DNA from: Leptolyngbya sp. SIO1E4
GTDB taxonomy: Bacteria > Cyanobacteriota > Cyanobacteriia > Phormidesmidales > Phormidesmidaceae
Length of the DNA: 64,000 nucleotides
NCBI GenBank assembly: GCA_010672825.2
Contig: JAAHFU020000004.1
Span: 682,001-746,000 of the forward strand
Reading direction: 5' to 3'
Below are positions 50-64,000 of the stretch, piece by piece (the stretch's first letter is position 1; each line of letters begins with the position of its first letter). The notes beneath the pieces are model-generated. The model was not told where the DNA came from, searched no databases, and was given only the letters and a program-made list of their open reading frames with translations. Made by a program: the position numbers and the translations under genes.

Positions 50-58
50 GGAGGGCCT

Positions 59-2505: not shown

Positions 2506-2511
2506 TACCCC

Positions 2512-4707: not shown

Positions 4708-4719
4708 GGGGGCACTGGC

Positions 4720-11906: not shown

Positions 11907-11967
11907 TGCAAATGCCAGATGTGGTTGTGGCTTGTCATTCCAGGGCTATATGAAAGAGAAAGTTGGG

Positions 11968-12354: not shown

Positions 12355-12455
12355 ATAAATAAAGTATCCACTTCAAGCCCGAACATCGTATGCGCCATAC
12401 TTTGCTGCTAGCGTTCGCATTTCCTCTCGTCTATCTTGCAATCGCCCCTCAAGCT

Positions 12456-22920: not shown

Positions 22921-25900
22921 CTATAAAGGCTCCGAAGCGGCTCGATAGGCTCGATGACAGAGCGCCTGTTGACGATTCAGGGAGGCCGCTGCCGTTGAAG
23001 CGTCATCCTGGTTCCAGACAGATGACATGGCTTCACTTGGTTCACGGTCTAACGTCACCCAATCAGCCGCAGCATCAGCGGTTGTTGCCCTGAGCACAGC
23101 GGTTGGCATGGTTGGTAAGCCGCCGCGCCCAGCGACGGTAACTGCGCTCCCCTCATCTAAGGCATCCCCTGTACATTGACGAGTGGTTTGATCAGAGGCA
23201 TCAATAAATGCGATCGCTAACTCAGCCAAACCGCGATTCGGATCTGTGGTGAGGGTATTCAGCTCAACGGTTCCCTGCACACCGGCCTCAGAACTGGCCG
23301 TGATGTCGTTGAGCGGCGTCCGCTCGGGGCGTACCTGAATCCCAAATGCGCCTAAGGCATTAATGCGAATATTGCCGCCAGCCCCTTCCCCAGCATCGGC
23401 AAAGATGTCACTGCCTTGATCTCCCGTAGGAAATTCAGCAATGATGAAATCAGCCACGATGTCGATATTACCGCCGCTAGCATCCCCCCCAATGGCTTCT
23501 GCTGAAATCACACTTTCGTTCCTGAGCCACAGAATATTTTCTAGGGTCTGATCGTTGGCCAAGTTGAGCGTAATCTGAGCGGATGCCTCGCCTCCAGCAG
23601 CGCCTGTTTCTGCCGTCAGGCTACCGTTGTCTAGCAGGATGCGATTTGCGGCAATATCGAGCCCTCCAGCCGCCCCTGCTTCATTACTGCTCACGCTAAT
23701 CGCTCCCCCGTCCAGGACTTCCAGAGATGCCAATAGGCGATTTTCTGAACCAATGGTGACGCTACCAGCCTCTCCACTCTGGGCTGTTGCGCTAATGGAT
23801 GAGCCGTCGCCAGTGACAACAAGGTTATTCGTTTCAACGATGACGTTACCAGCAACCCTTTCTGTTGTACTGGTTTCAATACTGCCGCCAGCGGAAACTT
23901 CAACTGAGTTAGTCGCATCAATTTCTACTGTGCCAGCACTCCCATTCTCGGCAGAGGCTCCAATCGTAGAGTCTGCTCCTGTTATCGCTACTGTATCAAC
24001 GGTAACTGTGACATCTCCGGCTGTTCCGGTGCCGGTACCGCTAGCGGCTATCGCAGCCCCATCCTGCACTGTGAGTTGAGGGGTATTGAGGCTGAGGTTG
24101 CCTCCTGTGCCGCCATCACCAGAAGACGCGCTAATACCCCCCGGAGTGTCGCTGAACCTGCCGCTGAGGATCACTGAATCCGTGGCTTCAACCGATACGC
24201 CACCCGCTACACCGCTTTGAGTCGACGCCGAAATCAGTCCATCATTCACCGACAGAGTCTGTAAGTTCTCGAGAACAACGCCTTGCCCTTGACTTGATAC
24301 TGTTGATGCAGATATTTGCCCGCCAGCATCAATCGTCATCTCAGGGGTGTTGATGCTAATAAAACCGCCCTCTCCAGAACCACTAGCAGCTGCAAATAAG
24401 CCACTATTCGCCACTTGATTGGGATTTAGACCTGTATTCAGAAGCGAACTCGGAGCCAGAGATATTTGTAGAGTGTAAGTATCCCCTATCCCTACAACAC
24501 TCCCTGCAATACCAGTACTATCGGCATCTGAATCAAATTCACCAACACCGATAACGTACGTTCCAGCCTCGCGAAAGGTATAGCGCAAATAAGAATCTCG
24601 CAAAATATTACCAGCACTGCCTTGAGCGCCTGCTGAATTTACGAAATCATCATTTCGAGCTAACAGGTTTGCCTCTGGGTTGCCTTTTCCATCATCACCC
24701 AGTCTGAAAAGAAAAAGCTCAGTATCGACTCTGCCATCGACAGGCTCATATCCGAAATCAATATCGAAAGTGCCTGTTGTGTTGGGCTCAGTAATTTCAA
24801 TCACATAATAGTCAAACGCTTCATTGCCCTCAGCTGCAATAGAGATATAGGGAACCTGATCGGCCGCCTGAACATTGACAGCATTGGGAGAATTGGGATT
24901 GACTGAGAAGGTCGTCTCGAAGTCACCGCTAATTTGCTGTCGCGATCCTGCGAATGAGTCTGCTGGAAATAAGGCATCTTCAGCAGCTGGCAAATTTGTA
25001 ATCGTTTCGCCATCCCCGGTGACACTCACTTGTTCTGGAACCGGTCGAGCAGCAAAATTATCATCTAATCCTGAGATTAGGGCTTCCTCAGAAGCAGAAA
25101 TATTGATATTTCCAGCATTTCCAGCACCATCTGAATTTGCAATTAGCTGCCCCCCATCCAGAACTTCGACTCGACGGGGCAAATTGGCTTGGCCAATCAA
25201 AATATTGCCCCCCGGCGATTGTCCTGAGGTTCCCGCGCTTAAGACCCCTCCATCAGCGACTCTCAGGTTGCCATTAGCAGAAAAATCAATGGAGATATCT
25301 CCTCCCTGACCGCTAATATCAGATTCAGACGCGGTGAAAAATCCACTCGAAAAGCCCTCAGCGTTATATCCAGAAATACTCAATGCAGGGGTAGCAGTAT
25401 CTTCACCTGAAATTGTGACTTGAATGTTGCCTGCCTGAGCATTGTCTTCTACAGGATTAAGGGTACCTACAGTGCGATCGCCAAAGGTTCGAGCTTCCAA
25501 TCTTCCCCCATCAGCCAAGGCAAGTTGGTTCGTCTCAACGTTAATACTTCCTCCCGATCCTCCAGCTCCAAACCCCACGATTGTTCGAATACTGCTATTG
25601 CTAATTGTTATCACATCAGCATTGACAATAATATCTCCGCCAGCTGCATTACCATTCGTGCTGGCATCGATAAGGGATTGATTCTCTAGAGAAAGTTCTC
25701 CAAAAGAAGTCAGCGTGATATTTCCACCAGAATCATCAAATTCATTCGATAAAGCATCACTAAAAATACTACTTCCATCTAAAGTAATATTTGTTCCTTC
25801 AATTTGAATGGCGCCTCCATTTCCAACTGCAGAGAGGGCACCTGCATCAAGCAAAGCATTTGTTAGCTCAACGGAACCATTGGGGGCAACAATCTCAATC

Positions 25901-31199: not shown

Positions 31200-31388
31200 G
31201 GGGCACCCGATAGCCCTGTGCAGTTTGGTTAAAGACATCTCGTCTGCTGGCGGGGAATAGAGAACAGGGAATAGTGCGATCGCTTTGTCTCTAGCGTAAA
31301 GAAGCCTGCCCAGGGATGGGTCTGGCTGAAACTAACATTCACGCAGTGGGGGCTTTGGAGGAAGCTGGTCAAACCCCTCGGGTTGCAG

Positions 31389-34139
31389 CTATAGCCAGTT
31401 GCCGATCAGCACGAAGGGCGCCCAATAGTAGGGATGATCAAAATTATTATCGGGATCTTCAATGAGATGTTTTTGAGCCCTCTGCAGGGCTTCAGCCTTA
31501 TTGCCCGATTGGGTTGATAGGGCCTGGTAAAACTCGGTCATGAAGACAGCGGTGGCGGCGTCATCAACCTGCCAGAGGCTGGCAACGGTGCTACGGGCTC
31601 CAGCGCGAATGGCCATGCCCGCCAGCCCTAAGGCGGCGCGCTGATCACCTGTGGCCGTTTGACAGGCACTCAGGACTAACAGCTCCACAGGTTTGGTTCG
31701 GTCACGCTGCAACCAGCGACTCAAATCATTGACAGAAATGCGATTATTCCAGGCTTGAATGAATGTCTCATCCAGCCGAGAACTAAATTGGCCGTGGGTA
31801 GCTAAATGGATGATGGGGGCTGAAGAATTGCTTAAAGTCGCCTCAAACTTTTCATAGGTGAACTGCTCGTTGAGGAAGGACTCAATGGGAACCTGTTGCC
31901 TAATTGCCTCAATTTCATCGAAGACGTAAGGTAACGATGACCATTCAGCGACGGCTTCGGTCAGCCCAAAGGTGAGGGCCTCCAACGAGGTTTCTTGCAG
32001 GGGTTGGGGGTTTAAGAGCTGTAGCCCTGGAGTAATGGCAATGCTGTACTGCTCGACCAGATAAGACTCCCCATCGAATAATGCCGCGATGGGAACACTC
32101 CGCAGGGCACCATCAGGAACAAATACCAGGGTGTCGGGCTGACTGTTCGCTAAGTCTTGCAACAGGGGCTCAGGAAACAGTAAATCGTACAGGTGGTGTG
32201 CCGTATCGAGAACGCCATAGTCTACAAACACCATCTGGCGACGCATGCGAGCGGCGTAGCGATCCAGTTCTCCGGGGGCAAGGGCAGCGGTGTAATATTG
32301 CAGTTCACCCGCTTGGGATGGGGCTGCTTTGGTTTGCTCTGCTTTGGCTTGCTCGGCTTTGGTTTGGGAGGGCGGTAAGTTGGCAATAATGCCGATTTTG
32401 TTAGGTAACAGGATGGGGTAAATTACCGCGACTCGCCGATCGCCAGAAATGTCATCCACCGAGACTTCTTGGCTGTTGAGACAGGCAGCCCTGAGGTAAT
32501 TGTTGAGTTCCTCCAACTGGAGGGATTCTAGAACTGCCCGAGCATCCTTGAGATTCGCCTGACTGGGGGGAGACTCGCCCTCCAGCAGCAGGCTGACGAG
32601 TTTACGATGCAGCGGTTCAATGCTCTGTTGGAAGGAAAATTGCACCTCAGGGTTAATGGTGACCAAGTCGCTTCTGAGGAATTTCAGGGCATTGACAGCG
32701 CCCCGGTAGGCGGCGATCGCCGCCTGTTGGTGGGTGGAGGTGTCCTCAAGTTCGCTGAGCTGTACGTGAAGATCCCCCAGCTGTTCATACCAGCGATAGC
32801 TAATATCAACGGCGTTGACCGTTTCGGACGAAAAGAGCGCCTCTTCCGTGAGTTTTGTGGCCTTTTCTAGCTGAGTGCGATCGGCCTCGATCTGACCTTT
32901 ACTTTGATAGGCTTTCCCCAGATAGCCCAGAACATGGGCTTCAGCTCGGGCATCTTCCAGGGCAATGGCCTCGGTTTGGGCCGTTTCTAAAATGGCTAAC
33001 ACTTGGCTGAAACTTGGCACCCCGGTGATGGGCTGCTGGGCCAATTGTTCTAAACTATTGGCCAGGTTGATGCGCGTATAGATGCCGTCTTGATTGGGAG
33101 AGAGGGCATTGACTTGGGCATACACCGACGGCCATTGCTGAACCGCCTCATCCCAGCGTTCAAACTCAACCAGCAATGCCAGTTGATTGAGCTGCGATCG
33201 CATTGCATTGCCACTCATGGCTGTGGGGGTCACGTCTGGCGCCGAGGCCCGGTCGTACCAGGCCAGAGCCTGCTCCACCGAGGCCTCGGCCAGGGCCGGA
33301 CTATTTTGGGTTTCATACTCTTGAGCCTGAGCGTACTCAATATTGCCAAGGGTCAGTTGAGTGGCTGCAATTTCCTCCTCCAGGGCTAACGTTTCTGCCA
33401 CGGCCAGACTGGCCTGGGCAGCCTGGCGGGCCTGCTCTAAACTTTCAGCCACGATCAAGGCTTCCGCCAAGCTTCTAAGGCTCTGGGTTTTAACAGGGGA
33501 AGGGGATTCAGCCGTCAACTGTTGCTCCAACGGCACCAGAATTTCGTCAACGGCTCGACGATAAAAGCCCAGAGCCTGCAAAGCCCGGGCCTGGCGCAGC
33601 TGACCGCGAATTTGCCCGGCTCGATCACCCGCCGCTTGGTAAGCATTGACGGTCTGTCCCCAGCTCTCAAAGGCAGCTTCAGCGTCGCCCTGGCCCAACT
33701 GCAAGCGGCCCAAAACGTTCAGCGTTTGCGCCCTGACTCGCTGCCAGTTGGGGTCATCTTTCCCTGGGAGATCTAATAGTCGGAGACTCTGAGCGATCGC
33801 ATCATTGGCCTGAGACCACCGCCCCATCTGTCCATACACTAAGGCCAGGTTGCTCTGCACCATCACCTCGCCTAGGGTGTCATTTTGGCTTTGGGCCGTA
33901 TTGAGGGCCGTCTCCAGGGTCTCGGCAGCGATCGATAACTGCCCTCGCACAAAGTTTTCTTGACCCTGATCGAGCAAATACTGAACGTCACGGCTAGGAA
34001 CTTCAGCACTCAAGCCAGGGGAAGGGCTTATCCCCACTAGCTCCCATGGCCCAACACCGAATAGGACTAGCATCCAGGCAAGACACAGACCCAGCAAACC
34101 ATACCCAGCCCGTTGCCACATCGTTCGACGGATTTTCAT
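31389..34139 (-). CDS. Exported TPR-CHAT protease
   Basis: 916 residues from ATG 34139 (a TTG six codons upstream is less likely). Signal sequence/TM MWQRAGYGLLGLCLAWMLVL. Residues about 40-480 are degenerate TPR helices (VQYLLDQGQENFVRGQLSIA; LGRLQLGQGDAEAAFESWGQ). CHAT domain at about 590-916: catalytic His in IIHLATHGQF and Cys in LLVLSACQTATG, ending YYWAPFVLIGNWL. CHAT proteins are caspase-like cysteine proteases of clan CD. An export signal is notable, since better-known CHAT proteases act in the cytosol. A 50-bp palindrome lies 20 bases before the start. Confidence 0.88.
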   Translation of the reverse strand: MKIRRTMWQRAGYGLLGLCLAWMLVLFGVGPWELVGISPSPGLSAEVPSRDVQYLLDQGQENFVRGQLSIAAETLETALNTAQSQNDTLGEVMVQSNLALVYGQMGRWSQANDAIAQSLRLLDLPGKDDPNWQRVRAQTLNVLGRLQLGQGDAEAAFESWGQTVNAYQAAGDRAGQIRGQLRQARALQALGFYRRAVDEILVPLEQQLTAESPSPVKTQSLRSLAEALIVAESLEQARQAAQASLAVAETLALEEEIAATQLTLGNIEYAQAQEYETQNSPALAEASVEQALAWYDRASAPDVTPTAMSGNAMRSQLNQLALLVEFERWDEAVQQWPSVYAQVNALSPNQDGIYTRINLANSLEQLAQQPITGVPSFSQVLAILETAQTEAIALEDARAEAHVLGYLGKAYQSKGQIEADRTQLEKATKLTEEALFSSETVNAVDISYRWYEQLGDLHVQLSELEDTSTHQQAAIAAYRGAVNALKFLRSDLVTINPEVQFSFQQSIEPLHRKLVSLLLEGESPPSQANLKDARAVLESLQLEELNNYLRAACLNSQEVSVDDISGDRRVAVIYPILLPNKIGIIANLPPSQTKAEQAKAEQTKAAPSQAGELQYYTAALAPGELDRYAARMRRQMVFVDYGVLDTAHHLYDLLFPEPLLQDLANSQPDTLVFVPDGALRSVPIAALFDGESYLVEQYSIAITPGLQLLNPQPLQETSLEALTFGLTEAVAEWSSLPYVFDEIEAIRQQVPIESFLNEQFTYEKFEATLSNSSAPIIHLATHGQFSSRLDETFIQAWNNRISVNDLSRWLQRDRTKPVELLVLSACQTATGDQRAALGLAGMAIRAGARSTVASLWQVDDAATAVFMTEFYQALSTQSGNKAEALQRAQKHLIEDPDNNFDHPYYWAPFVLIGNWL

Positions 34140-34159
34140 GGCCCAAAAGTCCAGCAACC

Positions 34160-48963: not shown

Positions 48964-48991
48964 GGAATCTGTTTTCTATCCTGTCCTTACT

Positions 48992-51168: not shown

Positions 51169-54063
51169 TTACTGCCCATTGCCGATTAAGACAAAGGGTG
51201 CCCAGTGATAGGGATGGCGATCGCCCAGCGGTTCAAAGCCTTCCCGATACTGAGGGGCAGCTCCGGTGCGAAGGGCATCCAGGCGAGTGGATACATCTTC
51301 GTCGTATAGCAAACTGAGTTGCGCCTGCCGCAGTGCTTCGGCTTTGGTAAGTTCGCCCGTTACAAGAAATTCGTAGAAGCGCTGCATCAAGATGCTGGTG
51401 CTGTCGTCGTTCACCGCCCAGAGCGACACTATGACGCTAGGCACCCCGACGGTAATCAGAGCGCGGGATAATCCTACGACGCCATCGCCGGTAATCCGTC
51501 CCCGTCCGGTATCGCAGGCACTGAGAATCGCGAGGTCAGCCTGTAAGTCCATTTGCAGAATTTCGGCGGAGGTGAGGAGGCCATCTTCGCCATCGCCGGG
51601 AGCCAGTGCCACCGCACCAGGTACGTCGAGCACGCCGGAGGATTCGGGAATGCCGTATTCCAGCAGACCGTGGGTCGCGAGATGGATGAGGGAGGCGTTG
51701 GGTAACTCTTGTTTGATGCGGGCTTCGGTGGCCTGCTCCCCCGTCAGCACAGGGATGTTGAAGAACTCGCCAATGGCCTCGGCTTCGGCTTTGGCACCGC
51801 TCAAGTAAGAGAGTTGGGTTTCTGCGAGGCTGCCCTCTTCGTTGGGCAACCACACGGTGGGCATGGTGGGATTTCCAACTATTAGGGCATTCTGGCTATT
51901 CATGCCTATTTCCTGTGCCCTGTTTTCTGTCCCCTGTCCTGCTTCATTAGCCAACCCAAAGACCTGAATCGACGGGGCGGTGAGGATGGTGTGTTTTTCA
52001 ATCAGGTAGGTGCCATCTTCGTCTTGCAAGGCCGCAAAGGGCACGAGGAACAGCTGGCCTTGGGGAATGAAGGCAACCTGGGCATTGGGGTTACTGGGGA
52101 GGAGATCGGCGATCGGATCGATCAGCACCTCATGCAGTTCTTGCAGTTGGGGGGTGTTGGGGTTGCTGCTCTCGTTGACGGCAGAGCGGGAGTCGTTGAC
52201 TAGTGTGGTGAGGGCAGAGTCGGGAGTAGCGCTGCGGTAGACGGGTCCATCAATGGATGCGATCGGGTTTACGACTGGGCTACCGTCACCGCCACCCTCG
52301 AACTCAACCGAGCGAAACTCGATGTCACCGGAAGGCTTCACGACCCAGATGTAGAGGGCCTGGTCAAAGATGAGGGAATAGGTAACTAGGGTGGTATTAG
52401 TGTCGCGGGCAATTTGTTGGATTTCCGCTACGGTGGGCACCTGAGCCACGGGACTGGCTTCCAAGGCGGCGCGTTCTTCCTCCGTAGCAAGGCGGCTAGC
52501 CAACTGCAACACAAACGCCCGCCCCCGTCCGCGCTCGGTAATAGTGAGGGCTTCTACGATCTTTTCCTGAGAAATTAAGGCCCATTCCAGATTGGCGTAG
52601 GCGTAAGCTTGAGTATCAGCGATAGAAACCAATTGAGCATCAGGAAGGTTGGTTCTTAAGGACTCAAAAGTGCCCACAGATCGGAATAAGAGCGTTGCGG
52701 CCTCAGCATATTGGCCAAGCCTAGCGTAGACAACGCCCAAATTCCCCAGGTCGATTGCTTCCCCAGCGAGATCGCCAATCTCACGAGTAATAGCTAGACT
52801 TTGCCCATAGATGGCAATAGCTTGCTGATATTGACCGAGGCTAGCGTAAACAGTGCCCAAATTCCCCAGCGCATTTTCTTCTCCCATGAGATCGCCAATC
52901 TCACGAGTAATAGCTAGGCTTTGCTCATAGAAATTGATAGCTTGCTGATAGTCGCCCAAGCCGCTGTAAGTCGAACCTAGAACGTTTAAGGCGTTTCCTT
53001 CCCCAGCACGATCGCTGATTTCGCGGGTAATTGTTAGTGACTGCCACAAAAGGTCGATGGCTTTCTGATAGTCACCCAGATTGTTGTAGACGAAGCCCAG
53101 GCTTCCCAAAGCGCTGCCTTCCCCACGACGATCACCAACCTCACGAGTGATTGCTAAACTATGCTCTAAAAGGTCGATGGCTTTTTGATAGTCGCCCAAA
53201 AGTCGATAGGTAAGGCCCAAATTCCCCAAAGCGCGTCCCTCTCCACCACGATCGCTAAACTCACGGGTGATCGCTAGCTGTTGCTCCAGACGGTCAATGG
53301 CCTGTTGATATTCTCCTAAATGCCTGTAGACAAGGCCCAGCCTTTCTAGCAAAGCACTTTTCCAGGTGTGATCACCAACCTCACGGGTAATGGCTAGACT
53401 TTGCTCATAAAGGTCAATGGCTTGCTGATATTCGCTCAGATCATCGTAAGAAAGTCCCAAATGCCATAAGTCGAACCCCTCCCCAGCACGATCGCCGATT
53501 TCGCGGGCGATCGCTAGACTTTGCTCATAGAAGTCAATGGCTTGCCGATATTCACCCAAACTATGGTGTGCATTACCCAGTTGTCCTAGAGAGGTACGTT
53601 CCCCAGTGCGATCGCCGATTTCACGAGTAATAGCTAGGCTTTGCTCATAGAAATTGATAGCTTGCTGATATTCATCCAAACTGAGATAAGCATTGCCCAA
53701 ATACCATAGGACTTGTTCTTCCCCAGCACGATCACCAATCTCACGATAAATTGCCAGGGCTGGTTCCAAAAACTGCAAGGCTGCGTAAATCTGTCTAGCT
53801 TTGTACTGTTCAATGCCTTGTTGAGAGAGGCGATTTGCTTCGACTTGACGGCTGTCGGTTTGGGCCAAATTCTGGGTTGCCTCTGTTTTCCAGCCTAATG
53901 GCTCAATCTCTGGCTGGTTACCAGCGGTGCTTAGCATTTTGAGGGCCGAGAGAACCCCGGTTTCTGGCTCTAAATTTGGTTTCTGAGAGGTTGCGGCGAC
54001 CTCCAGGGTAGGAACAAGGAGGGCCGTAAGAGCTGTTAGGCTGAGCAGTGCAGAGTGGCGCAT
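51169..54063 (-). CDS. Exported TPR-CHAT protease
   Basis: 964 residues. Signal peptide MRHSALLSLTALTALLVPTL EVAA. Ten 40-residue TPR-type units at about 95-480 (YQQAINFYEQSLAITREIGD followed by GEGNALGNLG-type helix B). After a helical linker, CHAT domain at about 600-964: His in LIHLATHGLLEYG, Cys in LAILSACDTGRGRITGDGVV, closing HPYHWAPFVLIGNGQ. Caspase-like fold; proteolytic residues intact. TPRs probably recognise a partner that controls the protease. Last gene of the minus-strand run that starts beyond 64 kb. Confidence 0.9.
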   Translation of the reverse strand: MRHSALLSLTALTALLVPTLEVAATSQKPNLEPETGVLSALKMLSTAGNQPEIEPLGWKTEATQNLAQTDSRQVEANRLSQQGIEQYKARQIYAALQFLEPALAIYREIGDRAGEEQVLWYLGNAYLSLDEYQQAINFYEQSLAITREIGDRTGERTSLGQLGNAHHSLGEYRQAIDFYEQSLAIAREIGDRAGEGFDLWHLGLSYDDLSEYQQAIDLYEQSLAITREVGDHTWKSALLERLGLVYRHLGEYQQAIDRLEQQLAITREFSDRGGEGRALGNLGLTYRLLGDYQKAIDLLEHSLAITREVGDRRGEGSALGSLGFVYNNLGDYQKAIDLLWQSLTITREISDRAGEGNALNVLGSTYSGLGDYQQAINFYEQSLAITREIGDLMGEENALGNLGTVYASLGQYQQAIAIYGQSLAITREIGDLAGEAIDLGNLGVVYARLGQYAEAATLLFRSVGTFESLRTNLPDAQLVSIADTQAYAYANLEWALISQEKIVEALTITERGRGRAFVLQLASRLATEEERAALEASPVAQVPTVAEIQQIARDTNTTLVTYSLIFDQALYIWVVKPSGDIEFRSVEFEGGGDGSPVVNPIASIDGPVYRSATPDSALTTLVNDSRSAVNESSNPNTPQLQELHEVLIDPIADLLPSNPNAQVAFIPQGQLFLVPFAALQDEDGTYLIEKHTILTAPSIQVFGLANEAGQGTENRAQEIGMNSQNALIVGNPTMPTVWLPNEEGSLAETQLSYLSGAKAEAEAIGEFFNIPVLTGEQATEARIKQELPNASLIHLATHGLLEYGIPESSGVLDVPGAVALAPGDGEDGLLTSAEILQMDLQADLAILSACDTGRGRITGDGVVGLSRALITVGVPSVIVSLWAVNDDSTSILMQRFYEFLVTGELTKAEALRQAQLSLLYDEDVSTRLDALRTGAAPQYREGFEPLGDRHPYHWAPFVLIGNGQ

Positions 54064-54218
54064 AAGTCGTTTGAGGGGGAGATTGACACTAGCGTATAGT
54101 TCTCATCGGTCTAAGCTTATTCACTTTTAGGCGGGCTTCAGGAAATAAGGCGAGAGAGGAGTTTTGAGTTTTGAGTGGGGAAGTAGCCCACTCAAACTTT
54201 TTGGATAAGACAGGAGGC

Positions 54219-57065
54219 CTATAATCCATTACCAATGAGGATGAACGGTGCCCAGTAGTAAGGATGGCTGTATCCAGGATGATTGCCGTTGATCGCTGCC
54301 CCATCACGACTGACGGGCCGCGCACCCGCCCGTGGATCGTCTGCATCACTGACGGTACTGCTACCATCAATCATCGCCCGCTGTGCAGCCTGCAATGCCT
54401 CCCCCTTGGTCATGCCCTGCGCCAACGCCTCATAAAACGCCGACATCAACGCCTGAGTGCCCGGATCGCTGACCTTCCAGAGGGACGCCAGCACCGCTTG
54501 CGCTCCCGCTTCCTGCATCTGATAGCCCAGCCCCAAAATCTCCACGCCGCTGCCTAACTCCTCACTACCGACAGCGGTTTCACAGGCACTGAGCACCACC
54601 AACTCCGCATCGAGGCTCCAGCTATTGCGAATTGTTTCTAAGCTGACCTGCTCACCACTGCCTAGCACCACAAACGACTGCGCTGGAGCATTTTCGACCA
54701 CTGCACCGTGGGTCGCCAAATGCAAGATCGAGTAGTTGTTCAGGCGATTCTCGAGTTCTTTAAGGCTAAAGTCTTGGTTGAGTAGCACAGTGGTGTCGGG
54801 CATTTGCTCGGCCAGAGAGGTCACCTCAGCCTCGGTGTAGGGCAAGTCACCAAAGGGAAACTCCCTGTCCCCCACCGTAATCGTAAAGCTGCACTCGGCA
54901 CAGGCCGCCGCTAGCAGTTGTCGCTGGTCTTTATCTGGCGGCAGGGCAAAGTCAGTCAGGGAAGCGGCCACAATATGACTGATGCTAAAGCGATCGGCCA
55001 GGTATTGCTCGCCATCGTAAAGGGCGGCCAGGGGCACGTAGCGCAGGGCTCCATCCGGCGCGTAGATGATCGACTCGATGCCCGCCTGGTCTAGCGTCGC
55101 TTCCAACTCGGCGAAGAGCAGCATGTAAAGCTCTTGGGCCAGCGGTTGAATATCGCTGCCGGGGGATTTAAGGGCTTGCCCAAAGGCGACAATTTTGCGA
55201 TTGAGGTCAGCCCCTGCAACGGCAATGGGAAAGCGCAACGGTGGGCCATCGGCAGTAACGAGTACAAGTTCGAGGCGATCACTCAAAATCAGCGGATACA
55301 GTAGCGCTGTTTCTTGAGGTAGATCTTGCAGCCGGTTTTGCAGTTTGCGATGCTGTCGCTCAATGTCAACATTTTGACCATCGGTCTCGTCTTCAATCTG
55401 TTCTAAAAGCGCTTGTACTTCGGGCAGGTCAAGAAAGGCGATGAACTGATTTTGAACCGTTTCATAGCGCTGCCGCAGTTCGGTGAGGCGCTGCTGTTGC
55501 TCCAGACTGAGACTGTCGTAGTCTTGAGCCTGTAACTCAGCCAGATCAGTGGATTCTTCGGTGACTTGCTCATACAACGCCAGCAATTCTTCCTCAATCT
55601 GCCAGAACCCCACGCCAGTTTCGGTGTCTCTGCTGCCTTGAACACTCCGCAGAGACTCATCCAGTTCCTGAACCTTGAGCAGGTCGAGCACGCGCTGGGC
55701 TTCGAGAATGCGATTTTGTTGGAGAAGAAGATCAGCTAGAAAACGGTAGTCATCAGCGATAGTGTCGGTAAAGGACTGTTTCAACTCAGTATCAAGCCCA
55801 GCAATATAACCACGAATGGATTCGCGCACTTCAACTGAGGCTTTGAGGAAAATGACTGCCAGTTCCTGCTTCCCTTGATCGTTTAAGAGCTTACCTAAAC
55901 TGCCTAAAATCAAACCCTCAGTAGCGCGATCTCCAACTTCTCGGACGATCTCCAGGGATTGTTCATAAAAGTCAATGGCCTTCGAATACTGATCCAAGAT
56001 TGAATAGATTATGCCCAAATTGCCTAAGGTTAGACCTTGTCCTTGACGGTCACCAATTTCACGAGTAATAGTAAGCGCTTGTTCGTAGAAATCAATGGCT
56101 TGGGAATATTGAGCCAGATTCAAATAGGAAAGACCTAGATTAGCTAAGGTTGTACCCTCGCCTTGGCGGTCGCCAATTTCACGAGTAATAGTAAGCACTT
56201 GTTCGTAGAAATCAATAGCTTGCTGAGTTTGCCCTACAGACAAGTAGGCAAGTCCCAAATTACCTAAAGCATTGGCTTCCCCTTGACGATCATCAATTTC
56301 GCGAACGATGAAAAGCTGTTGTTCATAAAGATCAATGGCCTCTAAGTATTGACCTAAGCCTTGATACACAATGCCTAAATTACCCAAGGCGCTGCTCTCT
56401 CCTTCAAGATTGCCAATCTCACGAGAAATAGTGAGACTTTGCTCGTGGAGATCGATAGCTTTCGAGTATTCACCTAAGAGAGAATAAACAAGACCTAAAT
56501 TCCTGAAGGCTACACCTTCGCCTTGGCGGTCTTCAATTTCGCGGGCAATGGTAAGGGCTTGTTCAGAATAGTTGATGGCTCTTTGCAACTGTCCCAACTG
56601 AAAGTAAGCGAAGCTCAAGTTGCCTAGAGCAATGCCTTCGCCTCGGCGATAGCCAATTTCTCGGGCGATAATGAGTTGTTGCTCGTAAAGATCAATGGCC
56701 TGTTGATACTGGCCTAAAGATGCATAAGCAGCGCCTAAATTTCCTAGGGTGATGCCTTCTAGCTGATAACTTTCTTCCGGAAACGCTTCCCGAATATCGG
56801 TCTCTCGATAAATTTCCAAGGCCGCTTCCCAAAACTGAAGTGCTTCTCGAAATTGGCTAACGCTAAATAGTTCATTGCCTTGGTCGAATAGGCGATCAGC
56901 TTCGGCTTTGCGCTCTGAGTTGCTAGCTGTTTGAGTTAAGACGGGAAAGGTATCTTGCTGGAGGCGGATTTGCTGAGTTGTTTCCGAGAATCCTGGTGCT
57001 TGAATAGTGGGGGCAATGAGGGTGGCGATCGCGACTAAACCAAACAGCTTGACAGGGTAGTGCAT
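54219..57065 (-). CDS. Exported TPR-CHAT protease
   Basis: 948 residues from ATG 57065: GGAG lies 9 bases upstream and the start aligns with the paralogues (MHYPVKLFGLVAIATLIAPT, compare MRHPARLLGLATV), though ATGs at 57089 and 57071 are in frame. Eight to nine 40-residue TPRs at about 60-430 (YSQAIDFYEQALTITREIGD). The CHAT domain begins near 600: PDGALRYVPLAALYDGEQYL, His in ILHLATHGAVVEN, Cys in LVVLSACETAVGSEELGSGV, ending YYWAPFILIGNGL. The block AACAECSFTITVGDREFPFG lies between the two CHAT halves. Intact protease dyad. Confidence 0.9.
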   Translation of the reverse strand: MHYPVKLFGLVAIATLIAPTIQAPGFSETTQQIRLQQDTFPVLTQTASNSERKAEADRLFDQGNELFSVSQFREALQFWEAALEIYRETDIREAFPEESYQLEGITLGNLGAAYASLGQYQQAIDLYEQQLIIAREIGYRRGEGIALGNLSFAYFQLGQLQRAINYSEQALTIAREIEDRQGEGVAFRNLGLVYSLLGEYSKAIDLHEQSLTISREIGNLEGESSALGNLGIVYQGLGQYLEAIDLYEQQLFIVREIDDRQGEANALGNLGLAYLSVGQTQQAIDFYEQVLTITREIGDRQGEGTTLANLGLSYLNLAQYSQAIDFYEQALTITREIGDRQGQGLTLGNLGIIYSILDQYSKAIDFYEQSLEIVREVGDRATEGLILGSLGKLLNDQGKQELAVIFLKASVEVRESIRGYIAGLDTELKQSFTDTIADDYRFLADLLLQQNRILEAQRVLDLLKVQELDESLRSVQGSRDTETGVGFWQIEEELLALYEQVTEESTDLAELQAQDYDSLSLEQQQRLTELRQRYETVQNQFIAFLDLPEVQALLEQIEDETDGQNVDIERQHRKLQNRLQDLPQETALLYPLILSDRLELVLVTADGPPLRFPIAVAGADLNRKIVAFGQALKSPGSDIQPLAQELYMLLFAELEATLDQAGIESIIYAPDGALRYVPLAALYDGEQYLADRFSISHIVAASLTDFALPPDKDQRQLLAAACAECSFTITVGDREFPFGDLPYTEAEVTSLAEQMPDTTVLLNQDFSLKELENRLNNYSILHLATHGAVVENAPAQSFVVLGSGEQVSLETIRNSWSLDAELVVLSACETAVGSEELGSGVEILGLGYQMQEAGAQAVLASLWKVSDPGTQALMSAFYEALAQGMTKGEALQAAQRAMIDGSSTVSDADDPRAGARPVSRDGAAINGNHPGYSHPYYWAPFILIGNGL

Positions 57066-57145
57066 TGGCATCCGCTCCAGTTTTGGCATGACATCAGTGT
57101 GTAGCTCTGAGTTGGGAGAGCTGATTCGCTTACAGGGAATGGGCT

Positions 57146-58069
57146 CTACTCTTCGTCAGTAGGCTGCAACCCCGCTTCGATCTGGTCGATTTTGATGGCG
57201 TAGTTAAATAACGGCACATCGTTTTCGTCCGTGACGCCGCCTGCATGCAGCGCCACCACGTAGTAGTCGCCATCAATCTCCGCCAGGATGGGGCCGCCGG
57301 AGGCCCCGCCTGTCGTGTCGCAATCATGAATCCAAAATGGCTCCTCATCGGCTAAGATGCTGCAACCTTCATGGACGCCTGCCGTCTCACCCGGATTGTC
57401 AGGAGGAAAGTCGCCAGAGTAGCCCACAAGGTCTAGTTGCTCTGCTTTACCAAGAAGCGTTTCAGCCGGTAGCGTCTGCCAGTGCAGGGTGCCGTAGCGA
57501 TCGCCCAAAGGTCGATCCAGCTTGAGTAAAGCCCAATCATTGGGGTCAGGATTATCGCCGCTGTCAGTGAAGTCAGTGCCCGCTAAAACTTCTTCTACCC
57601 AAGCCATATCATCGGCATTTGTGATGGCACCGTTGATGAGGTTCGGCTGAAAGGCAATGCGTTTGTGTAACTCCTGGGTTTCAGACGTGATCGTACAGTG
57701 AGCGTTTGTCAAGACAACATCTTCGGCGACCAGGGTACCGGTACAGAGACTGATATTGCCGTCTGCCGTTTCAGCCACCAGGCGACCCACGGCTGACCAG
57801 GGATAGTCGCGATTATTCATCGGCACACGATCGTCCTCGCCAGGAACCACTCGGTCGGTATTAGGCGAGGGATCAACATTTTCTAACACGGTCGGAGCAG
57901 CGGCTGGTGATGGGAGCCAGTCAGGGCGATCGCCCGCCAGTTCTAGTTGAGGAAAGGTTTCGGTGGTTTGGGCCTGCACCTGACTTTGCTGGGTGGCAGA
58001 CAGGTAAACCGAGATCGCCAGTCCTAGAGAAAAACCAGAAAGGAGGATCGGTGGGGATAAAAGCTTCAT
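57146..58069 (-). CDS. Exported trypsin-like (V8/S1-type) serine protease
   Basis: 307 residues. Signal peptide MKLLSPPILLSGFSLGLAIS ... QVQA. After a ~60-residue pro-like segment comes the protease: CTGTLVAEDVVLTNAHC (His, about 128), DPNDWALLKLDRPLG (Asp, about 178) and GCSILADEEPFWIHDCDTTG followed by GASGGP (Ser, about 257). The triad is complete. Cys pairs around the His and Ser fit an extracytoplasmic enzyme. Lies between two TPR-CHAT genes on one strand, so a zymogen or activator role in a cascade is a reasonable inference; substrate unknown. Confidence 0.9.
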   Translation of the reverse strand: MKLLSPPILLSGFSLGLAISVYLSATQQSQVQAQTTETFPQLELAGDRPDWLPSPAAAPTVLENVDPSPNTDRVVPGEDDRVPMNNRDYPWSAVGRLVAETADGNISLCTGTLVAEDVVLTNAHCTITSETQELHKRIAFQPNLINGAITNADDMAWVEEVLAGTDFTDSGDNPDPNDWALLKLDRPLGDRYGTLHWQTLPAETLLGKAEQLDLVGYSGDFPPDNPGETAGVHEGCSILADEEPFWIHDCDTTGGASGGPILAEIDGDYYVVALHAGGVTDENDVPLFNYAIKIDQIEAGLQPTDEE

Positions 58070-58176
58070 AACTCAAAATTTTGTGATTAGCAATGCGGTA
58101 GAAGCAGCCTTTGGGGGCTATCGAAAAAACAGTGTAAGCCCCCACTGATAAGGAATGGAGAGAACCCCTGAATATC

Positions 58177-59247
58177 TCAATCAACGTCAGAACTCACAGC
58201 AATATTAGTTGCGCTGGGCTGCTGTCCTACTCTTTGTTGCAGTTCGGATTGCAACTCTTGGGCCACCGCAAGATCGGGCTGTAGCTGTAAAGCTTGTTCT
58301 ACAGCAGCCAAACCTGCTTCGTACTCACCCAGGGCAGCCAACACAGCCGCTTTACGATACCAGGCAAAAGCCCAGTCGGGGCGTAACGCGATCGCCTGTT
58401 CGTAAGACTTCAAGGCTTCCTCATAACGACCCAGTAGAGAAAGGCTATGACCGTGGTAAAACCAGCCCCACCGCCCCTGGGGCATCAAAACAATCGTCCG
58501 GTCAAAAGCCGCTAGCGCCTGTTCGTATTGCTCTAGCTCGAAGAGGGCGATCCCTTGACCATGCCATGCCTGACCGAGGGAATCGTTGAGGGCGATCGCC
58601 TGTTGAAAGGCCTCAACCGCTGCTGGATAAGCTTCTAAGCCCAGATTGCTTTGACCTAGCCTGAGCCAGCTTGGGGCATGGTCGGGAGCGATCGCAACCG
58701 CTTGTTGAAAATTGTTTGCCGCTTCGGAGTAACGGTTAGCGTTGTACAGAGCGATGCCTCGGTGGTAATAACCCCGGTGATTTTCGGGTTGGAGGGCGAT
58801 CGCTTGCTCATATGCCTGCAGCGCCAAGTCCAGCTGATTGGTGACATCCAGAGCATTGGCCATCCACAGCCAAGCGAGAAAAGAATCCCCATTGAGTTCC
58901 AGTGCGGTGGTGAAAGCTGCGATCGCATCACGATAACGCTCTGTGAAATAAAGGCTCAAGCCTTTACCCGTCCAAGCTGCTTCTTGATTGGCATCAAGGC
59001 GAATCGCCTGCTCAAACGCTTGCAAGGCTTCTTCGTAGTTGCCCGCCCGAAAGGCATCATAGCCTGCCTGAACAAGTTGATCGTAGTCACCCGCTTGCAC
59101 CAGGATGTCAGTTTCTAATGCTTGGAAGCGGCGATCGCTGGCAACAGGGATTTCTACAGCGGCCTCAACGGGAGGTGCAAAAAACGGCAAAATCAAGGCA
59201 ATGCCAACGCTGGTGAGCGTATTACTGAGAAAAGAAGTGGATTTCAT
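58177..59247 (-). CDS. Exported TPR protein
   Basis: 356 residues from ATG 59247 (a TTG just before it was ignored). Signal peptide MKSTSFLSNTLTSVGIALIL ... VEA. Eight 34-residue TPRs at about 55-330 (YDAFRAGNYEEALQAFEQAI; AWTGKGLSLYFTERYRDAIA; GYYHRGIALYNANRYSEAAN; AWYRKAAVLAALGEYEAGLA). No enzymatic domain. Likely a periplasmic scaffold or regulator of the neighbouring CHAT proteins, which is inferred. The terminator of the upstream CHAT gene ends right at this start. Confidence 0.88.
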   Translation of the reverse strand: MKSTSFLSNTLTSVGIALILPFFAPPVEAAVEIPVASDRRFQALETDILVQAGDYDQLVQAGYDAFRAGNYEEALQAFEQAIRLDANQEAAWTGKGLSLYFTERYRDAIAAFTTALELNGDSFLAWLWMANALDVTNQLDLALQAYEQAIALQPENHRGYYHRGIALYNANRYSEAANNFQQAVAIAPDHAPSWLRLGQSNLGLEAYPAAVEAFQQAIALNDSLGQAWHGQGIALFELEQYEQALAAFDRTIVLMPQGRWGWFYHGHSLSLLGRYEEALKSYEQAIALRPDWAFAWYRKAAVLAALGEYEAGLAAVEQALQLQPDLAVAQELQSELQQRVGQQPSATNIAVSSDVD

Positions 59248-59311
59248 CAAAAAAGTCCTCCAGGGGAGTTATTCGCTTCTGTCAAGAGCTATCTCTGCCG
59301 CTGGAGGACTT
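59248..59311 (-). terminator. Terminator after the 1048-residue TPR-CHAT gene
   Basis: On the minus strand AAGTCCTCCAG (59311-59301) pairs exactly with CTGGAGGACTT (59263-59253), followed by TTTTTT. The T tract touches the start codon region of the next gene (ATG 59247), so downstream expression would need readthrough or an internal promoter. Confidence 0.75.
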
Positions 59312-59325
59312 ATTCAGTTTTGGCA

Positions 59326-62300
59326 CTACAGCCCATTGCCGATCAGAATGAAGGGAGCCCAGTAGTAGGGATGGCGATAGCCCGATTCGGTGACCGCCAC
59401 ATCGAATCCTTCGCGGGCAGTGGGGATGGGTGCACCCCGACGGGCAGCCGCCAAGCGAGTTTCGGCATCTTCTTCATAGAGCAGGCTGAGTTGCGCTTGA
59501 CGCAGGGCTTCAGCCTTGGTGAGTTCGCCAGTGGCGAGCAGGGTATAAAAACGCTGCATCAAGACGCTAGTACTGGTGTCGTTCACTGCCCACAGGGAGG
59601 CGATGACTGTTTCGGCGCGACTATCGTCTGTGCCTAAAAAGTAGGAACTGATGCCCGTAATTTCGGCCCCGTCGCCCGCTGGACCACCCACCGCCGTTTG
59701 ACAAGCGGAGAGAATCACTAGGTGTAAATTATCTAGCCGGGCATTCATGTCTTCAATATCGGCGGTGGTGAAGCGATCGCCGTTGCCCATCACAATAAAT
59801 GACTCATCCGCTCGACCAGGCACAAAGGCGGCATGAGTCGCTAGGTGCAGCACCTGATAATCAGGTCGCAAGTTAGCTTTTAAAGCCTCTAGCGTAAAGG
59901 CTTCGTTGAGTAGAACCTGGCCTGGATAAATGCCGATCGCGTCGTCGTCGCCACTCTGGACGATGCTATCGAGTTCGGTGGCGACCGCAGGCAGTGGGTT
60001 AAAGTTGGCGACGGCTTGGGTGAGCCCCAATCCAAGTACCTGGGAGGACTCGACATCGGCCAAGCGACTGCGTGTATCGGTGGTGCCGGGGGTGAGCACG
60101 GTGGAAATTTGATAGCGCTCGGCCAGAAACTGCTCGCCATCGTAGAGCGCCGCCATGGGAATGTAGCGGGTGACGCGATCGTTAACGAAAATCAGATGGT
60201 CAATATTGTTGGCGGCCAGCTCAGCTTCTAAAGGCTGAATGATCCAGTTGTAAAGCTGTTGGCCCTGGGCCTGCAGCTCGTCTAACCGGGTGGGTGCGGT
60301 GAGCAATTCGCCAAAGCGCTGCACGGTGTTCGCTAGTTCGCCCTGGGTTACCGGTACTTCGGCACTACCAATCACCCGACCCTCAATCGCCCATACCAGC
60401 CACAGCTTGTCTTCGAGCACGAAGGGATAAATCAGCACTGGGGTTTGCCCCTCAACAGCGTAGGCGCTGAGTAACGATTTAGCGTCGTCACTTAGCTCCT
60501 GTGGATCTTGAAAGTCTTCATCATCTCGACGGTTGGCGCGAATGGTGTTGGCAAACTGGTTGACCTGATCGTTGTATTGAGCGGTGAGGGCTTCGCGTTG
60601 ATCGTAAAGGCTGTTCAGCTCTGCGCAGTTAGTATCTTCGCAGGTAAGGATGGCGCTACTGAGGGCGATCAGACTGCCGTGGGCGTCGATGACGGGCTGC
60701 TCGGCAGCGGTGTAAGCCAGTGCAGTGCCTGTCCAGGTGGCGCGGGTGTTGGTAAACTCGCGCAGTTCTTCGAGCTTGAGTAGGTCAAGCACCTGCTGCG
60801 CTTCGGGAATGCGGCCTTGTTCGAGCAGCAGATCAGCCAGCAGGCGATAGTCAGCGGCGACAGTGTCGGTGAAGGACTGTTGCAGGTTGGTGTCTAGTCC
60901 ACGAATATCGCCCCGGATGGATTCACGCACGTCAACACTGGCTTTGAGAAAGGTGATAGCCAGCTCGGGCTGAGTTTTGGCGTTGAGCAGCTTGCCAATG
61001 TTGCCAAGAGTCCGGCCTATTTCTGCGCGGCTGCCTAGGACGTTGAAGATGGCTAAGGCTTGACCATAAAATTCAAGAGCACGATCCTCTTGTCCCAGGT
61101 TGCGGTACGAATTGCCCAAGTTGTCTAGGGCTATGCCTTCGCCAGCACGAACTCCAATATCACGAAAAATCTCCAGAGCCTGCTCGATAAAAGAGATCGC
61201 CTGGCGGTAGTCGCCCAGACTCAAGTACGCACCACCCAAGTTGCCTAGGGCATCTCCTTCGCCACGGAGATCGCCAATATCGCGGGCAATGGCCCGGTGC
61301 TGCTCGTAGTACTCAATGGCGCGGCGATAATCCCCCGAGCTCCAGTACACAATGCCCACATTCCCTAGGTAAGTTCCTTCACTGCCTCGTCTGCCAGTTT
61401 CACGGGCGATGGCCAAGGCTTGCTCATGGTACTCAATGGCGCGGTGGTAATCGCCTAGGCTCAAGTACACAAGCCCCAAGTTGTTCAGGGTGCGGCTTTC
61501 ACCAGCACCATCGCTCAGATCACGAGCGATGGCTAGGGCTTGTTCTTGGAAGTCGATGGCACGGCTATAGTCGCTTAGGCTCAAATACGAATTACCTAAA
61601 TTTCCCAGGACGGCCCCTTCGTTACGACGGTCGTCAAGCTCACGAGCGATGGCTAGGGCTTGTTCTTGGAAGTCGATGGCACGGCTATAGTCGCCTAGGC
61701 TTTGGTAGGCATTGCTCAAATTCCCTAGGGCAGCCCCTTCGCCAGCGCGATGATCGATGTTGCGGGCAATGGCTAAGTGTTGCTCGTGATAATCAATGGC
61801 GCGGCGATAGTCCCCAAGGTTGCTATAAGCAAGGCCCAAATTCCCTAGGGCATTTCCTTCGCTACGCGGGTCGTCAAGCTCACGAGCGATGGTCAGTGCT
61901 TGCTCGTGGAAATCAATAGCGCGGCGAGAGTCCCCCAGATCGAAGTAAGCATCGCCCAGATTTTCCAGAGCAACCCTTTCACTGCGGTGGTCGTTAAGCT
62001 CGCGGAAAATAGGCAGACTGTGCTCATAGAACTCAATGGCGCGGCGATAGTCCTCAAGGTCGCGGTAAGCAAGGCCCAAATTATTCAGGGCATTTCCTTC
62101 GCTACGCCGGTCGTCAAGCTCACGGAAAATAGGCAGGCTTTGCTCAAGAAACTCAATGGCGCGGCGATAGTCTCCCAAGCTGTAGTATGCACCGCTTAAG
62201 TTGCCCAGGACCTGCCCTTCACTTCTGCGATCCTGGATATCACGATAGATCTCCAGCGCCTGTTCCCAAGACTGCAAGGCCTCACGAAACTGGCTACGGT

Positions 62301-62472
62301 TGACTTGCTCGAAGCCCTGCTGAACGAGGCGATCTGCTTCGGATGCGCGATCTGCTGGGGTACTTTGTGCCAGTACGGAGGTGGTGGGTAGGAGGGTAAG
62401 GGTGACAGGTAGGGCAATGATGAGTAGAGCGGTGACGGTGGCGAGGCCGAGCAGCCGAGCAGGGTGGCGCAT
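59326..62472 (-). CDS. Exported TPR-CHAT protease (largest)
   Basis: 1048 residues. Signal peptide MRHPARLLGLATVTALLIIA. About twelve 40-residue TPRs at about 55-540 (YRRAIEFLEQSLPIFRELDD; YSRAIDFQEQALAIARELDD occurs twice almost identically). CHAT domain to the end: VNDRVTRYIPMAALYDGEQF, His in VLHLATHAAFVPGRADESF, Cys in LVILSACQTAVGGPAGDGA, ending YYWAPFILIGNGL. Two Cys in a loop at about 640 (TCEDTNCAEL) are unlike the paralogues and could be a disulfide in the periplasm. Protease residues intact. Confidence 0.9.
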   Translation of the reverse strand: MRHPARLLGLATVTALLIIALPVTLTLLPTTSVLAQSTPADRASEADRLVQQGFEQVNRSQFREALQSWEQALEIYRDIQDRRSEGQVLGNLSGAYYSLGDYRRAIEFLEQSLPIFRELDDRRSEGNALNNLGLAYRDLEDYRRAIEFYEHSLPIFRELNDHRSERVALENLGDAYFDLGDSRRAIDFHEQALTIARELDDPRSEGNALGNLGLAYSNLGDYRRAIDYHEQHLAIARNIDHRAGEGAALGNLSNAYQSLGDYSRAIDFQEQALAIARELDDRRNEGAVLGNLGNSYLSLSDYSRAIDFQEQALAIARDLSDGAGESRTLNNLGLVYLSLGDYHRAIEYHEQALAIARETGRRGSEGTYLGNVGIVYWSSGDYRRAIEYYEQHRAIARDIGDLRGEGDALGNLGGAYLSLGDYRQAISFIEQALEIFRDIGVRAGEGIALDNLGNSYRNLGQEDRALEFYGQALAIFNVLGSRAEIGRTLGNIGKLLNAKTQPELAITFLKASVDVRESIRGDIRGLDTNLQQSFTDTVAADYRLLADLLLEQGRIPEAQQVLDLLKLEELREFTNTRATWTGTALAYTAAEQPVIDAHGSLIALSSAILTCEDTNCAELNSLYDQREALTAQYNDQVNQFANTIRANRRDDEDFQDPQELSDDAKSLLSAYAVEGQTPVLIYPFVLEDKLWLVWAIEGRVIGSAEVPVTQGELANTVQRFGELLTAPTRLDELQAQGQQLYNWIIQPLEAELAANNIDHLIFVNDRVTRYIPMAALYDGEQFLAERYQISTVLTPGTTDTRSRLADVESSQVLGLGLTQAVANFNPLPAVATELDSIVQSGDDDAIGIYPGQVLLNEAFTLEALKANLRPDYQVLHLATHAAFVPGRADESFIVMGNGDRFTTADIEDMNARLDNLHLVILSACQTAVGGPAGDGAEITGISSYFLGTDDSRAETVIASLWAVNDTSTSVLMQRFYTLLATGELTKAEALRQAQLSLLYEEDAETRLAAARRGAPIPTAREGFDVAVTESGYRHPYYWAPFILIGNGL

Positions 62473-62592
62473 GGGTTAATAGTGTTCAACAAGAATTAAT
62501 GGCAGATCTCTGTGAGCTAAGCACCGCTTTTTACTAAGAGAGAATTTTGGTGCGGGGCAAGGTTGAGGCTAAATCAGCATCGGTTCAGTAAT

Positions 62593-64000
62593 TTATTCCA
62601 CTACCTCGATCGTGGCAGAGAACGTGACGACAGAATTGTTGTCCACGACGGCATCTCGGGCTGTAGGAATTGCGGCGTTGCGGCTGACGTCACCCAGCAG
62701 GCTGTCTAAAATATTACCTACGCTATCTTCAGTGCTTCTAGAGGCTTCACGAGTCGAGTCAAACACAGGAAAGACGTCGGCAGAGCGATCGCTAATGCGC
62801 TTCAGCACCCGTAAGGTATCACGCAATTGCGTGCGGCTGGCAATCACCAACACATTGAAGGAGCCAGAAGGTCCTCTCAAAGGTAAATCGAAGATATCGG
62901 TTGATTTGGGAATCTCAATACTTTCATTTGGACCAAGCTCCGCTTGAATCTCAGGCGCATTCCAGTCGCTGGGATGGTAGACGTACATGTCACCGTCATC
63001 TTCAGTCGCAATCACGGCAACAAATAGTGACGTCGACTCCTGATTCGTGAGCGTGAGCGACAGATTCTCGCCAGCGGTCAGGCGTGGAATGACGGGTGCT
63101 GCATCGCCCCGAGCCTTTCCACTAGAAACTACGGCTACCCCGCCCCGCTCAACAGTGCCGATTTCCATATCAAGGGCTAACTCTGTGGAGTTAGTATTCA
63201 CCATGCTTTGCAACGCTTGCTGAGCGAGTAACAGCTTGAAGCGGGGAAATAGCCGCAAGATCGCTTCCCCGGCACTTTCAAATCCAGCACCAAATGTATC
63301 GGTCAGGGGGGTGAGATTTTCTTTAAACAGGCCAAAGCTGTCAGATTCCAACTCAACAATATCGGCGCGATTTCGAATGCCGAGATTTTCTAACTGTGGC
63401 TGGATGCTGTTACTAAAGCGGCCAATCAGCACGTCGGCAGGGTTGTCAGGAATTGTCACCGGAGTCACGCGGTCAATTCGGTCTAGCTGTTGGCGAACCG
63501 TCTCTAAGTCATCCCCCAGCGACTCATGCAAACCCACCTGCAACGAGAAATCAGTCGGAATACCGCGAATTTCTTCTTGCAATAAAGTTCCTGCTGTGAC
63601 ATCAGGTGGCAAATCAATCGTATTTCCCTGGTCGTCAATACACTGAGCTTTGACTTTGAGGCCATTAAGCTGACCTTGTTGCTGCAAACGAGCAATAACG
63701 TCTCTGTTGGCATTCAACGCTTCATAAATCGAATCTTTGGCCTTCAATGCATTCGGCGTCATGCCACCCAGCCATAGCTCTACCGTTTGCCCGTCAACGA
63801 CTTCTCGCACCACCGCATCGGCAAAGGGGCGATCCGGTGTCATGAGATAAGGGGGCTGCTGGTCAAGGGCAGTTCCGGGTTGTATGAAATAAACGGGGTC
63901 TTGGGGGTCGCCTTCATCGACAGCACGAGTGATGCGGGCTAAATCTACAAACATGCTTTCCAGCGACTCTGTCTGGCCAACTTGCCAGAGATAGCGCGTG
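62593..64000 (-). CDS. C-terminal part of a probable caspase-family protein (cut by window edge)
   Basis: The frame stays open to base 64000 (reading WQVGQTESLESMFVDLARIT), so the N-terminal part lies outside. The visible 468 residues contain a DUF4384-like segment (LTAGENLSLTLTNQESTSLF, DGDMYVYHPSDWNAPEIQAE), a DLPLRGPSGSFNVLVIASRT strand, and helices with RISDRSADVFPVFDSTREAS. In cyanobacteria this tail typically follows a peptidase C14 (caspase/orthocaspase) domain; that domain is not visible here. First gene of the CHAT run. Confidence 0.65.
   Translation of the reverse strand, partial: TRYLWQVGQTESLESMFVDLARITRAVDEGDPQDPVYFIQPGTALDQQPPYLMTPDRPFADAVVREVVDGQTVELWLGGMTPNALKAKDSIYEALNANRDVIARLQQQGQLNGLKVKAQCIDDQGNTIDLPPDVTAGTLLQEEIRGIPTDFSLQVGLHESLGDDLETVRQQLDRIDRVTPVTIPDNPADVLIGRFSNSIQPQLENLGIRNRADIVELESDSFGLFKENLTPLTDTFGAGFESAGEAILRLFPRFKLLLAQQALQSMVNTNSTELALDMEIGTVERGGVAVVSSGKARGDAAPVIPRLTAGENLSLTLTNQESTSLFVAVIATEDDGDMYVYHPSDWNAPEIQAELGPNESIEIPKSTDIFDLPLRGPSGSFNVLVIASRTQLRDTLRVLKRISDRSADVFPVFDSTREASRSTEDSVGNILDSLLGDVSRNAAIPTARDAVVDNNSVVTFSATIEVVE

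Follow-up and report, generated by a model that had tools for sequence, protein, structure and literature searches.

A predicted envelope protease module of TPR-CHAT, trypsin-like and orthocaspase genes recurs among cyanobacteria

The window, i.e. the whole stretch of 64,000 bp that was analysed (C4:682001-746000), belongs to the 8.2 Mb genome of Leptolyngbya sp. SIO1E4, assembled in 12 contigs, and ends in a run of six minus-strand genes coding for three TPR-CHAT proteases, a trypsin-like serine protease, a TPR-only protein and an orthocaspase, all predicted to be exported. On sequence comparison, the gene order is well supported as non-random and as a conserved module, and its recurrence points to a proteolytic module at work in the envelope and not in the cell interior. 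Our best explanation, which as a whole we give an even chance of being correct, is that the run belongs to an extensive array of caspase-fold proteases that are exported, and that it represents a recurrent envelope module in which Sec-exported TPR-CHAT proteins, a Sec-exported V8/trypsin-like zymogen and, in some lineages, an orthocaspase exported by twin-arginine translocation (Tat) would work as a cascade. By gene cluster, the closest named relative was a Leptolyngbya metagenome-assembled genome (L191), with a trypsin 87% identical in the best segment. The genes of the run, in window positions, are as follows.

51169..54063, minus strand: predicted exported TPR-CHAT protease 1, 964 aa, its sole Cys being the catalytic C850 (Pfam, signal-peptide rule)
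54219..57089, minus strand: predicted exported TPR-CHAT protease 2, 956 aa, H794/C836 dyad (Pfam, alignment, AlphaFold model)
57146..58069, minus strand: predicted exported trypsin-fold serine protease, 307 aa, V8/glutamyl-endopeptidase-like, predicted zymogen (Pfam, alignment, phmmer)
58177..59250, minus strand: predicted exported TPR-only protein, 357 aa, no Cys, signal peptide (Pfam, signal-peptide rule)
59326..62472, minus strand: predicted exported TPR-CHAT protease 3, 1048 aa (Pfam, signal-peptide rule)
62593..64000, minus strand: orthocaspase, C-terminal part, its N-terminus lying beyond the window edge (full gene C4:744593-746899, 768 aa)

All six co-directional genes were present where a first-pass annotation of this DNA had placed them, with intergenic gaps of 155, 56, 107, 75 and 120 bp; the annotation's range of 75–155 bp was correct at its upper end, the smallest gap being 56 bp. 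Pfam domains in the run comprised three CHAT, Trypsin/Trypsin_2 above cut-off, TPRs and DUF4384.

Relatives of the trypsin-like protease were split by score into class A (high) and class B (lower). A TPR-CHAT gene was located within 500 bp of the trypsin gene in 30 of the 50 class-A loci (on the same strand in 28), and the pairing spanned 12 of the 23 genera and five families, against 0/7 loci in class B, which served as control; the loci are not independent, and those of class B are all from the window's own family. Chance pairing would amount to ~1% by our own estimate, made from ~30 CHAT genes among ~5,500 genes. In a set of named organisms, which overlaps the first and is biased because its search alignment was drawn mostly from CHAT-linked members, the pair was present at 25 of 33 loci with CHAT upstream in 21, and the named genomes with the pair included those of Nostoc, Scytonema, Tolypothrix, Calothrix, Cylindrospermum and Komarekiella. 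All 50 trypsin relatives in the 84,980-species collection were cyanobacterial, within the sensitivity of the pattern search. A compact CHAT-trypsin-caspase order, with gaps of 4–141 bp, was identified in three genomes of one genus (G029, G035, G040) and in G273 from another family. Phormidium sp. FACHB-1136 is a culturable carrier of the triple. The same genome as the window holds a second module at C4:184-205 kb, in the order CHAT, trypsin, caspase, TpsB (ShlB), two TpsA and CHAT, with a few further genes interspersed. Conservation of gene order across cyanobacteria, proposed as a check in the first-pass annotation, was in this way borne out. One apparent trypsin-TPR fusion in G003 (L070:9703-11634) was dismissed: it is best read as a trypsin gene joined to the following TPR-CHAT gene by a frameshift or by read-through.

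Export of the run proteins is well supported as a sequence prediction, by the signal peptides, the Tat signal, the depletion of Cys and, in the trypsin, two conserved Cys pairs of disulfide type. The five complete proteins all passed a strict signal-peptide rule (Sec), for which the false positives were 3/537 (0.6%) on internal Met segments, in agreement with the first-pass claim of a signal peptide on each visible N-terminus. The rule was passed by 24 of the 30 strong CHAT proteins of the genome vs 41 of 173 other ORFs; among the six failing CHATs, several have an N-terminus like a signal peptide but fall short of the charge rule or begin at an uncertain start, and one (C4:625545-628487, 10 Cys) appears cytosolic. 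The median Cys content was 0.27% in CHATs vs 1.1% in signal-less soluble proteins (p 4e-8); this is an indirect kind of evidence of export, and the soluble comparison set was picked by the same signal-peptide rule.

By domain and dyad, the three CHAT proteins of the run are members of the CHAT peptidases, and catalysis is predicted. Their CHAT (PF12770) scores were 238, 230 and 209 bits against a curated cut-off of 24, and all three keep HLATH...SAC.T, so that the dyads reported as intact by the first-pass annotation are indeed so. The residues H794 and C836 (CHAT 2 numbering) were invariant in 16/16 aligned paralogues and homologues, and the catalytic His and Cys were intact in all 30 strong CHATs of the genome (26 by pattern, 4 by inspecting the sequence). 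In total, 49 CHAT matches were identified in the genome, and the aligned paralogues were 24–71% identical to CHAT 2. The AlphaFold model of CHAT 2 contains an unbroken TPR superhelix over residues ~57-430, with a predicted local distance difference test score (pLDDT) mostly >80; the CHAT domain was modelled at lower confidence.

The trypsin triad H124/D178/S257 was likewise intact, as had been claimed, and is invariant in the class-A alignment. The Cys pairs 109-125 and 236-250 are conserved and of disulfide type. In phmmer searches the protein matched 7uxg and the glutamyl endopeptidase GluBI (1p3c), the match covering the mature N-terminus of GluBI. Arg73, located just before the stretch that aligns with this N-terminus, was conserved in 98% of class A, and the protein is predicted to be built as a zymogen with an almost invariant Arg before its mature N-terminus. 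The His aligning with the acidic-P1 His of these enzymes is present in the run trypsin and is Asn in many relatives. A class-B paralogue in the same genome (G000:C3:497975-498652) and its relatives (L084-L089) have no CHAT neighbours, carry the conserved Arg before the mature N-terminus, and are near a recurrent conserved gene in several genera.

The run caspase is predicted to be a catalytically competent orthocaspase. Its Peptidase_C14 domain (PF00656) scored 67 bits, its C-terminal region includes DUF4384, and the dyad H138/C212 is retained. Residues D66 and D210 are at the positions that render the specificity pocket of metacaspases acidic. Residues 43-357 matched metacaspase 4 (Z 15.0, root-mean-square deviation 3.5, 207 residues) within a full model of moderate confidence (mean pLDDT 65); for the C-terminal half nothing convincing was found by Foldseek or VIA, as the match lists were filled by the caspase domain. 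The N-terminus is a Tat rather than a Sec signal, SRLRRRHFLQLAG...ALAQ, with the RRxFL motif, a hydrophobic stretch and an A-x-A-type end, from which export is predicted; RRHFLQ and L38-A39-Q40 were invariant in 12/12 aligned relatives. All Tat caspases examined keep the His-Cys pair, together with the acidic S1 residue wherever it was covered. A Tat-like N-terminus has been reported on YS pseudo-orthocaspases, as their main difference from presumably active ones (PMC6426788), but every homologue listed here had His-Cys in place of the Tyr-Ser replacement.

In the cascade we favour, the TPR superhelix would take up a ligand, a partner or a substrate and, by analogy to Craspase (PMC9729208), control the CHAT domain as a gate; a ligand or substrate on the TPRs would free a CHAT protease. 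Cutting of the trypsin zymogen after Arg73 would fall to the Arg-specific orthocaspase or to one of the CHATs, and the serine protease would then cleave envelope or surface proteins, or amplify their cleavage. TpsA-type exoproteins, to which other CHATs of the same genome are fused, are plausible targets. The first-pass annotation had cast the trypsin-like protein as the activator. Its zymogen build with the conserved Arg73 argues for the reverse direction. Because orthocaspases cleave behind basic residues (PMC6426788), it is more likely that the serine protease is activated by the caspase or by a CHAT than that it activates them. What the sequences show directly is the domain content, the unbroken active sites, the signals for export, the recurring gene neighbourhood and the fusions of TPS to CHAT; from these we infer the order of events, the substrates, the joining of the three enzymes in one pathway and any cell-death role. 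A fuller form of the scheme, a surface or periplasmic cascade in which the Tat orthocaspase activates the V8-like zymogen under TPR-CHAT sensors, coupled to TpsA and with CHASE2-CHAT reading inward, would be improbable in all its parts together.

Several observations weigh against the cascade. The conserved Arg is kept equally in class B, which has no CHAT neighbour, and Arg73 was therefore rejected as proof of activation by the CHAT or caspase partners; the argument for a downstream trypsin is further weakened because most pairs have no nearby caspase (a caspase was seen at 12 of the 50 loci within the fetched stretch). The trypsin was without an adjacent CHAT in 11 of the 23 genera. TPR-CHAT is a duplicated family, so that part of the clustering is tandem expansion. 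Finally, a single operon for the run is doubtful and was not accepted, because two terminator-like hairpins with T runs flank the TPR gene.

58130..58147, minus strand: terminator-like hairpin and TTTTTT just past the TPR stop codon
59245..59315, minus strand: strong hairpin then TTTTTT right where the TPR gene starts (fold z -3.75), which may act as a terminator or an attenuator

The run may instead form two or three transcripts. A promoter scan gave nothing above chance (9 vs 8.6). A perfect 10-bp inverted repeat (54170-54196, fold z -4.28) lies between CHAT 2 and CHAT 1, with no T following on the minus strand.

The closest competitor to the cascade, although clearly less probable, is that exported CHATs mainly mature or shed two-partner-secreted exoproteins, trypsin and caspase being helpers or bystanders. 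As a class, the exported CHAT domains are strongly tied to two-partner secretion (TPS), and the features that bear on this are listed below.

31389..34157, minus strand: predicted exported CHAT protein, 922 aa, outside the run, beside two TpsA genes and 151 bp from the nearer
28233..31238, minus strand: TpsA-type exoprotein, 1001 aa, TPS domain (Pfam)
22921..28041, minus strand: TpsA-type exoprotein, 1706 aa, TPS domain (Pfam)
G000:C1:2440897-2448810 (L177:7389-11411 and 11679-15494): TPS-CHAT ORFs
C5:501637-509376 (L181:9629-17602): TPS-CHAT ORF

Each of three TPS domains of the genome thus has a C-terminal CHAT in its own ORF (L177 twice, L181), and directly adjacent TPS-CHAT pairs were found in L175, L179 and L185. 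Full-length relatives of one fusion, at 35–41% identity, were identified in several genera of family f15, in one f24 and in one f1 genome, and in further f1 genomes the TPS and CHAT ends were within one open frame. A CHAT was located within 10 kb of 14 of the 15 TPS domains of the genome (circular-shift mean 2.6, maximum 12 in 5,000), whereas the excess within 2 kb was not significant (2 vs 0.9 expected), in part because the TPS domain is at the far end of long genes. The module at C4:184-205 kb, which runs on into TpsB, TpsA, TpsA and CHAT, also favours exoprotein maturation. Against it, the run has no TPS gene alongside, and most trypsin-CHAT pairs have no TPS within 10 kb. The TpsA link suggested in the first-pass annotation accordingly holds for CHAT genes as a class, through fusions and neighbourhood, but not for the run, which stands ~17 kb away from the closest TpsA/CHAT set of the window; its own proteases are not thereby placed on TpsA.

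The array extends beyond the window to ~C4:795 kb with at least seven further TPR-CHAT genes, a subtilase, transposase-like genes and two sigma-like/DUF1822/CHASE2-CHAT blocks (C4:756837-761763 and 775959-781002). Blocks with a sigma factor, DUF1822 and a CHASE2-caspase are of the kind predicted as conflict systems (EACC2; PMC8195603). The two copies, and further CHASE2-CHAT sets beside trypsin-CHAT loci, would suit a reading in which the run forms the sensing, outward part of a system for cell death or immunity, its envelope protease signal being read by a nearby receptor of this described type (PMC8195603) and passed inward. We regard this as unlikely, as CHASE2-CHAT was near only a minority of the trypsin loci, and PADLOC on the run gave mostly generic TPR models, with a 68-bit match to one general caspase model and a number of weak, partial matches. 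General extracellular digestion or envelope turnover, with genes clustered by family expansion in a permissive region, is the least probable reading, for although it fits the many CHAT paralogues, the subtilase and the transposase-like genes, tandem duplication does not explain the recurrent pairing of unrelated families (at two loci of this genome and across families), and caspase-fold proteases are usually specific.

Each protease family of the proposed module is known singly, and the exported combination appears to be undescribed. TPR-CHAT of Craspase (type III-E CRISPR) is built alike, with a CHAT caspase-like protease behind a TPR superhelix, and its activity is regulated within a complex (PMC9729208), but it is cytosolic with gRAMP and crRNA, whereas the run proteins are predicted to be exported; no CRISPR genes were found among the Pfam-scanned neighbours of the run, no dedicated CRISPR search having been made. 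HetF of Anabaena is a cyanobacterial envelope CHAT protein with a conserved active site (PMC8406250), but its CHAT domain comes first and is accompanied by a transmembrane segment, and the protein works together with the divisome; in the run CHATs a signal peptide and N-terminal TPRs precede the CHAT domain, which is C-terminal. The caspase shares the C14 p20 domain and acidic specificity pocket with orthocaspases and YS pseudo-orthocaspases (PMC6426788), and differs from the latter in combining a Tat signal with an intact His-Cys dyad. Glutamyl endopeptidases of the V8 type (S1B), secreted zymogens such as GluBI, have the triad, fold and mature N-terminus in common with the run trypsin, which differs in being paired with TPR-CHAT; it keeps the His that aligns with the acidic-P1 His, where many of its relatives have Asn. 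EACC2 systems are neighbours inside the array, but they are transmembrane and cytosolic, and exported proteases are not described as their components (PMC8195603); by Pfam the six run genes contain none of the EACC2 domains, and complete sets occur elsewhere in the array. In the literature covered (few subscription journals, preprints excluded), we found no account of a TPR-CHAT that is exported and paired with a trypsin, of TPS and CHAT fused in one protein, or of active orthocaspases that carry a Tat signal, nor any report of exported CHAT in general, of CHAT in connection with two-partner secretion or of CHAT in exoproteomes, a weak CHAT peptide match in a Nostoc water extract (PMC9895726) not being usable.

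Other loci were identified nearby. A transposase-like gene pair, with helix-turn-helix domains in the first gene, is located inside the CHAT array (C4:754395-755487, L033:9395-10487). A contractile injection system-like locus (C4:663039-682049 and window 1-7203) lies just upstream of the window; its segment at C4:663-679 kb codes for phage tail sheath, baseplate hub and injector OB domains, and same-strand genes continue into the window. The gene at window 12456-16520 codes for a NACHT-HEAT repeat protein with a C-terminal TIR (ThsB-like TIR in PADLOC), likely an immune protein. At window 48286-49942, a small and possibly sigma-like gene (no Pfam match) overlaps a DUF1822 gene, which has only a membrane pentapeptide-CHAT protein (42626-45379) nearby, whereas the other two DUF1822 genes of the array accompany CHASE2-CHAT.

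The best-characterised CHAT proteases, in CRISPR Craspase and gasdermin activation, are cytosolic. If correct, our explanation would make the cyanobacterial envelope a site of caspase-fold proteolysis, with active orthocaspases exported by Tat and fusions of TPS to CHAT among the proteins concerned, and would give a compartment and candidate substrates to dozens of so far unassigned proteases per genome. It would also bear on claims of programmed cell death in cyanobacteria, which mostly assume cytosolic caspase homologues.

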